64,000 bases of DNA, from contig NZ_JOEZ01000033.1 in the NCBI RefSeq assembly GCF_000721175.1, forward strand, positions 5,930 to 69,929, written 5' to 3'. The translations under genes were made by a program, and so were the position numbers. How positions within the stretch are numbered: the first letter of the stretch is position 1; each line of letters starts with the position of its first letter. Positions 18,183 to 59,253 of the stretch are shown here, piece by piece. Source of the DNA: Streptomyces anulatus (GTDB lineage: Bacteria; Actinomycetota; Actinomycetes; Streptomycetales; Streptomycetaceae). The notes beneath the pieces are model-generated. The model was not told where the DNA came from. It saw only the letters and a program-made list of their open reading frames with translations, and did not search any database.

Positions 18183-19148
18183 ATGACCGGAGGTCCTGAG
18201 ACCGACCCGGAGGAGCTGCTGAAGGGCCTGACCGTGGACGGTCGGCGTCCTGAGCAGCCCGTGCTGCTCGACGGCCGGGGCCGTCCGATCGAGACATGGC
18301 GGGAGAACTATCCGTACGAATGGCGGATGCGCCGCAGGGCGTACGAGCAGGAGAAGCGGGTCCTCCAGATCGAACTGCTGAAGCTCCAGCGGTGGGTCCG
18401 CGAGAGCGGACAGCGGTTGGTGGTTCTGTGCGAGGGCCGCGACGCAGCAGGCAAGGGCGGGACGATCCAGCGGTTCACCGAGCGGCTCAACCCGCGCGGG
18501 GCACGCGTGGTCGCCCTGGAGAAGCCCAGCGAGCGCGAGAGCGGGCAGTGGTACTTCCAGCGCTACGTGGCCCATCTCCCGACCGCCGGCGAGATCGTCT
18601 TCTTCGACCGCTCCTGGTACAACCGGGCGGGGGTGGAGCGGGTGATGGGCTTCTGCACGCCGGAGCAGTACGAGCACTTCCTGAAGCAGGCCCCGCAGTT
18701 CGAGCGGATGCTCGTCGAGGACGGCGTCCTGCTGGTGAAGTTCTGGTTCTCGGTGTCCCGCAGTGAGCAGCGGACACGGTTCGCGATCAGGCAGGTCGAC
18801 CCGGTGCGCCAGTGGAAGCTGTCACCGACCGACGTGGCCTCGTTGGACCTCTGGGACGAGTACACCACCGCGAAGGTCGAGATGTTCCGGGCCACGGACA
18901 CCGAGTGTGCGCCGTGGACCGTGGTCAAGAACAACGACAAGAAGCGGGGCAGGCTGGAGGCGATGCGCAGCCTTCTGTGGCGTTTCGCCTACGACAGCAA
19001 GGACGAGAAGGCCGTCGGAACGCCGGATCCGCTGATCCTGGGTCCCGCGGACACCTTGCTGGAGCCCGGGGAGGAGCGAGCGGATCTCTCGCCCACCCCC
19101 CTGTCCGGCCGGGCACAGGGGCCGGGCGACCACCCCGCTCAGCCGTGA
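18183..19148 (+). CDS. ppk2: Polyphosphate kinase 2 (PPK2 family)
   Basis: 321 residues, the single-domain PPK2 size. Walker A GRDAAGKGGT (about 85-94), the lid segment with NPRGARVVALEKPSERE (about 102-118) and Walker B FFDRSWYNRAG (about 140-150) identify the P-loop kinase that transfers phosphate between polyphosphate and nucleotides (class I: NDP to NTP). The C-terminal tail of about 40 residues is low-complexity and probably disordered. The ATG is preceded by GGGGACACC, a modest ribosome site. It is monocistronic between a hairpin terminator and a MITE-like element. Confidence 0.92.
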   Translation: MTGGPETDPEELLKGLTVDGRRPEQPVLLDGRGRPIETWRENYPYEWRMRRRAYEQEKRVLQIELLKLQRWVRESGQRLVVLCEGRDAAGKGGTIQRFTERLNPRGARVVALEKPSERESGQWYFQRYVAHLPTAGEIVFFDRSWYNRAGVERVMGFCTPEQYEHFLKQAPQFERMLVEDGVLLVKFWFSVSRSEQRTRFAIRQVDPVRQWKLSPTDVASLDLWDEYTTAKVEMFRATDTECAPWTVVKNNDKKRGRLEAMRSLLWRFAYDSKDEKAVGTPDPLILGPADTLLEPGEERADLSPTPLSGRAQGPGDHPAQP

Positions 19149-19241
19149 CCGTGAGCAGGTGTGCCATCCGGCGACTTCTGAGCTTCGGCTCAAGTGGCGG
19201 TCCGGACGCGGGTGCGGAACGCGCGGACCGGACCGGGCTCA

Positions 19242-19405
19242 GAGCCTGTCGGGTGGTCTTCGATCGAAAAGGCGGACGCGGCCTGGTGCGTGCGGTTCCC
19301 AGGCGCCGAGAGGTCCTCGTTGCGGAGCTGCCAGGGCATCTCGGCAACGCCGGAAGCGTGCGTGCCAGGGCGTGGCCGCCCGGTCAGAGGTCACCCGACA
19401 GGCTC
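19242..19405. mobile_element. MITE-like element, copy 1 (164 bp)
   Basis: Perfect 14-bp terminal inverted repeats, GAGCCTGTCGGGTG at 19242-19255 and CACCCGACAGGCTC at 19392-19405, are flanked by a 3-bp duplication TCA (19239-19241 and 19406-19408). No transposase fits in 164 bp. The right 30 bp are identical to the right end of the 52-bp copy at 45472. TNA duplications are typical of IS5/IS1031-type elements, so this looks like an internally deleted, non-autonomous derivative. The right TCA is also the TGA stop codon of the minus-strand transglycosylase-like gene. Confidence 0.75.
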
Positions 19406-20695
19406 TCAGGCGTCGGCCCCTTCGCCCGGTGCGCAGGGATCGCCGGGTTCTTCCCGGCCGCCCGGTGTCTCCTCGGTCGGGGGCGGCCCGGACGGGGACG
19501 GTGACGGGGTGTCGTCGGCGCAGCCCGGGCCGGTCTCGCCGGGATCGGGGTCGGGCGGTGTGGTGGGTCCGGTCGGGTCGGGGCTGGGGCCCGGGCCCGG
19601 ATCGGTGGGACCCGGGTCGGTCGGATCGGGGCTGGGGCTCGGGCCGGGGTCGGTGGGGCCGGGATCGGTCGGGCCGGGGTCGGTGGGGCCGGGGTCGGTC
19701 GGGTCGGGGCTGGGGCTCGGCGATCCGGGGTCCGTGGGGCGAGGGGTGGGGGTCGGGCTCGGCGGCCGCGTGGGCTGCGGGCCGACGACGACGCCTCCGT
19801 CGCCCTTGCCGGGACGCTTCGGCGCACCGGGCCCGCCGACCGGGGCCTTGGGCGGGGTCTTCCCGCCGGGGCCGGGGCTGGCCGGGAGAACGCCCTGGCC
19901 GTCGGCGACCGGGTGGCTGCCCTTGCGGTAGAACTCCAGCCAGGACAGCACCGTCCGCAGATAGGTGTCGGAGCGGTTGTAGCTGAGGATCGCCCGGTCC
20001 AGGTCGGCTCGGCGGGTCAGGTCGCGGGGCCCGGCACAGAGGTAGTGCCCGGCGGCGAGCGCCGCGTCGTAGATGTTGTTCGGGTCCCGGCGGCCGTCGC
20101 CGTTGCCGTCCGCTCCCCAGGCCGCCCAGGTGGACGGGATGAACTGCATCGGTCCGACGGCCCGGTCGTAGCCGCGGTCGCCGTCGTACGCCCCGTCGTC
20201 GGTGTCCCGGATCAGCGCGAAGCCCCTCCCGTCGAGCGCGGGGCCGAGGATCGGGGTGAGCGTCGTCCCGCGCGCGTCGACCCGCCCGCCGGACGCCTGG
20301 CCGGACTCGACCTTGCCGATCGCCGCGAGCAGCTGCCACGGCAGCCCGCAGCCCGGGTCGCTGCGGCCCACCGCGCTCTCGGCCTTGCGGTAGGCGGCCA
20401 GCACGGTGGCCGGGATGCCCGCCTCGGACCAGGCACGGGCCACGAGGGGATCGGGTTCCGTCCCGGGCTTCTGGCGTGCGGGCGGCTTCGGGGACCGCAG
20501 CGGCGGTAACTCGGTGTGGTAGACGTCGTCGCCCGGTACCTCGGTCCACACGACATCGTCCGACGAGGCAGCCTTCTCCTGCCGGGGCTCGGGCGGCGTG
20601 AACCCGGGGGCCTGGGACGCGGTGAGCGCGGTCATCGCGACGACGGCGGTGGCCGTGGTGCTCAGCCGGCGGCGCACGGTGCGGTTGAAGCTCAT
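19406..20695 (-). CDS. Secreted lytic transglycosylase-like protein with Pro-rich repeat tail
   Basis: 429 residues. A signal peptide (TATAVVAMTALTASQAPG, cleavage near 30) is followed by an SLT/MltB-like domain at about residues 85-265. That domain shows LPWQLLAAIGKVESG with the catalytic Glu, GPMQFIPSTW and a calcium-loop-like DGNGDGRRDPNN. The last 150 residues are a low-complexity Pro/Thr/Asp/Gly tail built from PTDPGP and PSPSPDP units that probably spans the cell wall. The domain cleaves peptidoglycan without hydrolysis. It starts 22 bp after the last Mce-associated gene, on the same strand, so it is likely the last gene of the mce operon. Confidence 0.85.
   Translation of the reverse strand: MSFNRTVRRRLSTTATAVVAMTALTASQAPGFTPPEPRQEKAASSDDVVWTEVPGDDVYHTELPPLRSPKPPARQKPGTEPDPLVARAWSEAGIPATVLAAYRKAESAVGRSDPGCGLPWQLLAAIGKVESGQASGGRVDARGTTLTPILGPALDGRGFALIRDTDDGAYDGDRGYDRAVGPMQFIPSTWAAWGADGNGDGRRDPNNIYDAALAAGHYLCAGPRDLTRRADLDRAILSYNRSDTYLRTVLSWLEFYRKGSHPVADGQGVLPASPGPGGKTPPKAPVGGPGAPKRPGKGDGGVVVGPQPTRPPSPTPTPRPTDPGSPSPSPDPTDPGPTDPGPTDPGPTDPGPSPSPDPTDPGPTDPGPGPSPDPTGPTTPPDPDPGETGPGCADDTPSPSPSGPPPTEETPGGREEPGDPCAPGEGADA
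19550..19745. repeat. Short tandem repeats coding the Pro-Thr-Asp-Gly tail
   Basis: About ten degenerate 9-18 bp units (GGGTCGGTCGGGCC-like on the plus strand) encode the repeated PTDPGP/PSPDPTDPG motif of the transglycosylase-like protein. The repeat number is expected to vary between strains, and the region is prone to slippage and misassembly. Confidence 0.7.
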
Positions 20696-44992: not shown

Positions 44993-45045
44993 ATGCGATT
45001 CGTAGCACTCACGGGCGGCGGGGTCCAGCACCCAGGATGGAGCTC

Positions 45046-45471
45046 ATGAGCAACGAGAACGCGGGGCGGCCCGCCACCGAGCCGATTGAGCTGAGCGCGG
45101 CCCTGGCCTCCTTCGAGGCGCTGTGGAGTCCGCGCATCGTGACCCGGGTCAACGACTACGACGTACGTGTGGCCAAGGTGTCCGGCGAGCACGTGTGGCA
45201 TGTGCACGAGGACACTGACGAGTTCTTCCTCGTGCTGGACGGAACGCTGGACATCGCTCTCCGCGGTGACCAGGGGGGCGGTGAGCGGTCCGTGACCCTG
45301 GAGCAGGGCGCGGTCTTCGTCGTCCCGCGCGGTGTCTGGCACCTGCCCCGTTCCGGTCGCGGCGCCTCGATCCTCCTCTTCGAACCGTCGGGTACGTCGA
45401 CGGTGGGCGATGCGCACGACGAGGTGCCCGGGCATGTGGACGCCACGACGGGACACGCGCTCGGCGCCTGA
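45046..45471 (+). CDS. Cupin-fold protein
   Basis: 141 residues forming a single conserved-barrel cupin. Motif 1 is WHVHEDTDEFFLVLDGTL (about 45-62, with metal ligands H, H, E) and motif 2 is VPRGVWHLPRS (about 95-105). It may bind a metal and a small molecule; enzymatic or sensor role is unknown. An alternative start at 45037 is 3 codons longer; ribosome sites do not decide. Its TGA stop (45469-45471) is also the left target-site duplication of MITE copy 2. Confidence 0.85.
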   Translation: MSNENAGRPATEPIELSAALASFEALWSPRIVTRVNDYDVRVAKVSGEHVWHVHEDTDEFFLVLDGTLDIALRGDQGGGERSVTLEQGAVFVVPRGVWHLPRSGRGASILLFEPSGTSTVGDAHDEVPGHVDATTGHALGA

Positions 45472-45523
45472 GAGCCTGTCGGGTGGCCTGCGTCCGCCCG
45501 GTCAGAGGTCACCCGACAGGCTC
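45472..45523. mobile_element. MITE-like element, copy 2 (52 bp)
   Basis: The same 14-bp terminal inverted repeats as copy 1 (45472-45485 and 45510-45523) flank only 24 internal bases. The flanking duplication is TGA (45469-45471 and 45524-45526). The right 30 bp (45494-45523) equal the right end of copy 1. The short interior makes it a 14-bp-stem hairpin in the gap between convergent genes, so it probably also serves as a bidirectional terminator. Confidence 0.75.
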
Positions 45524-45537
45524 TGAGCACGTACGGG

Positions 45538-59187: not shown

Positions 59188-59250
<63 letters not shown>

Positions 59251-59253
59251 CCG

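Follow-up and report, generated by a model that had tools for sequence, protein, structure and literature searches.

Why does a short mobile element lie exactly at the stop codon of a gene, and why does it do so more than once? This question is raised by a stretch of 64,000 nucleotides from the Streptomyces anulatus genome (hereafter the window), in which a first-pass annotation had noticed two copies of a MITE-like element, both at a TGA stop codon. Copy 1 (positions 19242..19405, plus strand; 164 bp), delimited by the pairing of its inverted ends and by BLAST, carries no transposase. Its left terminal inverted repeat, GAGCCTGTCGGGTG (19242..19255, plus strand), and its right one (19392..19405, minus strand) are exact matches to the same 14-mer, pair at 14 of 14 positions and enclose 136 bp. 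The element is flanked by TCA at 19239-19241 and by TCA at 19406-19408. Read on the minus strand this duplication is TGA: its outer copy (19239..19241) corresponds to a single TGA in the orthologue at locus L316, and its gene-side copy (19406..19408) is the stop codon of a transglycosylase-like gene of 429 aa bearing the Pfam SLT_2 domain (19406..20695, minus strand). The annotation had thus placed the element and its duplication correctly, and had rightly read the inner duplication as the stop of this gene. The C-terminal part of the gene, adjoining copy 1, contains a 15/48/78-bp tandem repeat array (19565-19740).

Copy 2 (45472..45523, plus strand) is a short form of only 52 bp. Its left (45472..45485, plus strand) and right (45510..45523, minus strand) terminal repeats are again exact 14-mer matches, identical to those of copy 1, and it is inserted behind a cupin gene of 144 aa (45037..45471, plus strand), whose TGA stop (45469..45471, plus strand) is the gene-side duplication; the outer TGA lies at 45524..45526 on the plus strand. 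The arrangement of copy 1, which had been said to recur here, is therefore the same in ends and duplication and differs in length, copy 2 not being full-length. Such 52-bp forms with one common internal junction were found at four places in two genomes (window 45472-45523; L038, at 4076; L073, at 4016; L259, at 3384). They could belong to a 52-bp subfamily that is itself mobile, or could have arisen several times over when the hairpin was deleted at a short sequence common to the copies. Forms shorter than 110 bp retain the element ends. At locus L123 of genome G274 (1526-1625), a related transglycosylase-like gene has at its 3' end a 100-bp form without a matching duplication, and is now predicted to terminate at a TGA within the element.

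Orthologous loci lacking the insert had been proposed as a test of the duplication, and for both window sites such loci carry one TGA. The cupin orthologue of genome G115 (L286) reads GCGCCTGAGCACG at this point, with a single TGA, and over the longer comparison CTCGGCGCCTGAGCACG, which corresponds to the flanks of copy 2 joined via that TGA. Likewise, the SLT orthologue of genome G066 (L316) ends in [TGA]GCCCGG, in agreement with the outer flank of copy 1, TGAGCCCGG. The two empty targets, CTCAG and CTGAG, are the same pentamer on opposite strands. Because the element runs from GAG to CTC, an empty site is equally compatible with a duplication of 3 bp (TSA) and with one of 5 bp (CTSAG).

In the S. 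anulatus draft assembly (8.4 Mb, 166 contigs) the exact 14-mer ends occur 82 times, versus 0 for the reversed control pattern, so that the repeat is not due to chance. A BLAST search with copy 1, in which 40 of 177 candidates were scored, matched at least 40 places, that of copy 1 among them, at 90-100% identity. Single ends with up to two mismatches numbered 266 against 138 for the reversed control (places listed in part), and about half of them are thus expected by chance. For the pairing of ends we took every exact match and, of the mismatched ends, six places with one mismatch, each with approximately 4 kb of flank if its contig was long enough. Pairing yielded 59 candidate pairs and 5 single ends without a partner; four pairs (L031, one in L065, L086 and L087) were dropped as chance pairs. 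The remaining 55 copies comprise 43 with an exact 3-bp duplication and 12 without a 3-bp match, and stricter mismatch limits gave 53 rows, 42 with and 11 without the duplication. Being short, bounded by terminal inverted repeats, devoid of transposase, flanked by a target duplication and present in many copies, the element is indeed a MITE, as had been suggested from the window; we classify it as a MITE of the foldback type, derived from IS5, with a target that suits stop codons.

The coincidence with stop codons extends far beyond the two copies in which it was noticed. Genes were called by a home-made codon-usage finder trained on the S. anulatus loci, not by curated annotation, after removal of the element and one duplication per site; the same codon table was applied to the other genomes, and the predicted coding share of the window was 0.86. 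Of the 43 S. anulatus copies that retain the duplication, 35 coincide exactly with a TGA stop predicted by this finder, six fall between genes and two inside genes; with the stricter pairing the stop codon is hit in 34 of 42. Stops are also occupied by 11 of 16 copies in genome G025, where 30 loci were sampled, by 26 of the 39 classifiable copies in loci from named genomes (four further copies at locus edges being excluded from the classification) and by 2 of 4 in the remaining genomes. Pooled, 101 of 105 copies could be classified, as 73 stop, 23 intergenic and 5 intragenic. These counts exclude 41 pooled copies without a 3-bp match, 20 of which still have a stop on the gene side.

What the element recognizes is narrower than the TNA first proposed. 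Its target is C-TSA-G, inside a looser CG-N-CTSAG-N-CG palindrome: 99 of the 105 pooled copies are at CTSAG and none at CTWAG. The named loci (at least 80 readable) were found by a pattern requiring CTSAG at one end, so their CTSAG share arises partly by construction; in the S. anulatus genome, searched by the ends alone, the target is CTSAG in 39 of 42. Nor is TNA scarce, as had been supposed: the S. anulatus loci, 558 kb after subtraction of the elements, contain 9,854 TNA sites, only 371 of them (3.8%) at stops. The same loci hold 453 unoccupied CTSAG sites, 91 (20%) at stops, 78 intergenic and 284 intragenic. Steering by target choice therefore stands, with CTSAG and not TNA as such as its source. 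Across all sets, the copy-holding loci contain 772 unoccupied CTSAG sites (131 stop, 177 intergenic, 455 intragenic, 9 at edges), against which intragenic elements are strongly depleted (5 of 101 versus 455 of 772, p = 5e-28); four of the five intragenic copies lie within 55 bp of the 3' end of the gene.

Very probably, then, copies of this IS5-derived foldback MITE gather on stop codons through the supply of CTSAG targets combined with the loss of harmful insertions. The element would be a non-autonomous derivative of an IS5-family (DUF4096/DDE_Tnp_1) insertion sequence, probably moved in trans by an IS5-type transposase cutting the C-TSA-G palindrome and leaving a TSA duplication. In this GC-rich genome, the stop context C-TGA-G makes up about one fifth of the CTSAG sites, and because the duplication keeps the stop codon intact on the gene side, the protein is unchanged. 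Selection appears to have removed insertions within genes and, less evidently, insertions in divergent regions or a short way upstream of the next gene, so that surviving copies would accumulate on stops. The proposal that the element is steered to gene ends where it does no harm is thus supported, with target choice and harmlessness as the likely cause.

Could the stop or the gene end instead be actively targeted before selection acts, by a transposition complex that reads gene-end structure or terminator hairpins, or is coupled to the completion of transcription or translation? When 93 elements at non-genic sites are compared with 308 non-genic controls, stops are favoured with a raw odds ratio of 4.4, the four locus sets giving 4.9, 4.3 (p = 0.055), 5.3 and 6.6 (p = 0.11), of which the second and fourth are not significant alone; the overall ratio falls to 3.2 on adjustment for region and to 2.6 (p = 0.002) when the wider palindrome is added, a residue which active targeting would account for. 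The excess, however, is mainly found in tandem regions (odds ratio 4.9; 29:10 versus 62:104, p = 3e-5), where interior sites adjoin the start of the next gene, and convergent regions, in which selection should be weakest, do not significantly favour stops (odds ratio 1.8; 42:9 versus 69:27, p = 0.23); 69 of their 96 unoccupied CTSAG sites are already stops. Moreover, a gene begins within 10 bp of none of the 29 occupied but of 10 of the 62 unoccupied tandem stops (p = 0.027), which looks like selection. Occupancy is also lower in divergent regions, but not significantly (odds ratio 0.32, p = 0.098), and increases 2.4-fold (as an odds ratio) with each matching base of CG-N-CTSAG-N-CG (p = 7e-10). 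Given these region and motif statistics, target supply and purifying selection can explain most of the stop pattern and leave a modest residue, and we regard active targeting as unlikely. That faulty gene calls or a handful of inherited insertions produce the coincidence is scarcely credible, and this explanation is already largely refuted. Although the gene finder is simple, 28 of the 30 stop genes tested (of 34 in S. anulatus) have a Pfam match at an E-value of 0.001 or better, 27 of them above the curated cut-off, with families such as His_biosynth, Dus, tRNA methyltransferase and prephenate dehydrogenase, and the empty orthologues of both window sites end at the same TGA; related flanks do occur, but 7 such pairs in a set of 101 classified copies carry too little weight to change the picture.

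It had also been suggested that the element supplies a terminator, and copies might accordingly be kept because a hairpin behind the stop codon acts as a transcription terminator or as a 3' stabiliser of the mRNA. The folds are strong: 94 full-length copies give a 163-bp consensus that forms a nearly perfect hairpin of -123.5 kcal/mol, and copies 1 and 2 fold at -88.9 (z -4.7) and -44.5 kcal/mol (z -6.9), respectively. Transposon ends alone, however, predict a hairpin. In the mixed named set, compensatory changes are more numerous than in shuffles (12 versus a mean of 3.8 and a maximum of 8), an excess that may reflect subfamilies, but they remain at the shuffle level among the S. anulatus copies (4 versus 4.5; mean identity 91.5%) and those of G025 (28 versus 27.2; mean identity 87%). 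Neither window copy has a T-tract terminator, that is, a GC-rich stem followed by a T-tract, and a search of the copy 1 region (18900-19700) against Rfam gave no family match at E-values up to 1. Convergent stops are not preferred to tandem ones (42:29 versus 69:62 unoccupied, p = 0.46), and the orientation of the element relative to the gene is 32:20 (p = 0.13). The missing T-tract, the convergent-to-tandem ratio resembling that of unoccupied stops and the orientation counts led us to rank a well-tolerated parasite above a domesticated terminator; the terminator proposal is not supported by these comparisons, and a retained hairpin function seems to us slightly less probable even than active targeting.

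A search for a full-length IS5-like parent with the same ends had been suggested; an IS5-type element with these ends, the likely parent, was found in another Streptomyces genome and not in that of S. anulatus. In genome G197 a 1013-bp element occurs twice, near opposite chromosome ends; its two 14-bp ends are identical to those of the MITE, and it encodes a 277-aa transposase with DUF4096 and DDE_Tnp_1 domains. Between the same ends at locus L118 (1820-2653), PF13340 and PF01609 both score above cut-off, indicating a DDE transposase of the IS5 type. TCA adjoins one end of the G197 insertion sequence and TGA the other, so that it lacks the exact duplication seen at MITE copies; it is inserted between convergent genes, 20 bp beyond the end of one of them. 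Partial relatives in G085 (92% identity over the matched part) and G021 (84%) also begin with CTGA followed by GAGCC. A scan of 30 transposase loci revealed eight more distant relatives with a TNA duplication beside other ends, CTGAG in three of the eight. No autonomous relative was found on a stop codon at any of the nine loci, the likely parent included: three are intergenic (one being the likely parent), two were called intragenic, and four are intergenic with one side unresolved. This counts against a bias of the whole family, on few loci, five of which have both sides resolved. In the S. anulatus genome itself, an inverted-repeat scan of the loci of 12 DUF4096 hits gave other ends in five and no pair in seven, and no protein match at an E-value of 1e-60 was present among the 8 scored of 44 candidates. 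A further candidate parent, in G235 (L120, 1780-3281), was rejected: it has the same ends, but is a 1502-bp element without an intact transposase. This element has perfect ends, a TCA duplication, a gene of the MDMPI_N/Wyosine_form type and, close to one end, a reading frame similar to a portion of the antisense frame of the parent; from its sequence it is perhaps a passenger-carrying derivative.

At least one exact end is present in 36 of 295 sampled genomes of the genus, S. anulatus included (places listed in part). Single matches mean little, since 25 of these 36 genomes show no more than one and approximately 44 genomes are matched once or twice by the reversed control. Besides S. anulatus, eight genomes have at least three exact ends: G025 (157), G274 (18), G232 (12), G149 (8), G204 (8), G197 (5, the insertion sequence included), G225 (3) and G259 (3). 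Carriers of the longer pattern, among the matches listed, are Streptomyces griseus BIG105, S. atratus, S. corynorhini, S. sp. NBC_01669 and Actinacidiphila species. Only 7 of 72,556 plasmid records match, five of them only in the inner part of the element, and the phages searched gave no match.

Copies may also stand end to end. Genome G025 has seven element-3bp-element junctions in six of its 30 sampled loci (up to three mismatches per end), one locus having two, and the spacer is TSA in four of the seven. A TSA beside GAG or CTC re-creates CTSAG, so an occupied site offers two new targets; the GAG...CTC ends would do so at both junctions and permit tandem copies, which probably grew by such re-targeting. 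In the locus with two junctions, the flanks of two neighbouring copies are 99.7% identical, and local duplication is an alternative there. In eight of the 41 copies that lack an exact duplication (L129, L132, L139, L140, L146, L152, L214 and L097), CTGA adjoins the left end and CGAG the right, the same T-to-C difference recurring at one copy of the duplication; some of them may be decayed element-element junctions.

Within the IS5 family, the IS427/IS1031-like groups have ends beginning with GAG and a 3-bp TNA duplication. The element shares both features with them, as well as a DUF4096 and DDE_Tnp_1 transposase in its 1013-bp relative, and differs in being non-autonomous. ISLxx6 has been described, in the available part of the source, as an IS5-family element of group IS427 with features in common with IS1031 and a three-nucleotide insertion site; that part mentions neither CTSAG nor a coincidence with stop codons (PMC2516522). 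The NuwaII group of the eukaryotic PHIS superfamily, in whose tree bacterial IS5 transposases form a separate clade, has the target C-TNA-G, with a duplication that can be read as 3 bp (TNA) or 5 bp (CTNAG), the ambiguity met here; it is eukaryotic, and the available part of the article mentions no stop-codon bias (PMC4482050). Coxiella QMITE2 resembles our element as a short, non-coding bacterial MITE lying mainly in 3' untranslated regions, but section 3.3 of the review that names it does not state that the stop codon is the duplicated target (PMC10969869). No description of the element, or of a MITE whose duplicated target is a stop codon, is to be found in the titles and abstract beginnings of the open-access literature searched, or in the available parts of PMC10969869, PMC12730594, PMC4482050, PMC2229807 and PMC2516522.

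The case illustrates, in a simple and countable form, that target choice alone can make a transposon nearly harmless, since a duplicated stop codon leaves the gene intact, and this can explain many copies directly behind conserved genes. Other CTNAG-type elements, of IS5 groups and perhaps of NuwaII, are predicted to share the bias in GC-rich genomes and less so in AT-rich ones, which the nine autonomous relatives examined do not yet show. The case also allows the supply of targets and selection to be told apart by experiment. It is conceivable, though rather doubtful, that CTSAG specificity is an evolved safe-haven strategy: with the C-TGA-G stop context as its target, a duplication that restores the codon and ends that renew the target, an IS5-type element of GC-rich actinobacteria could spread behind important genes, and do so in tandem too, while costing next to nothing, with a second targeting cue if the residual preference for stops is real. 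As a separate observation on inverted repeats in the window, a long G-run/C-run repeat lies at 59190-59252, with 30-nt arms that are 83% complementary and 3 nt apart.
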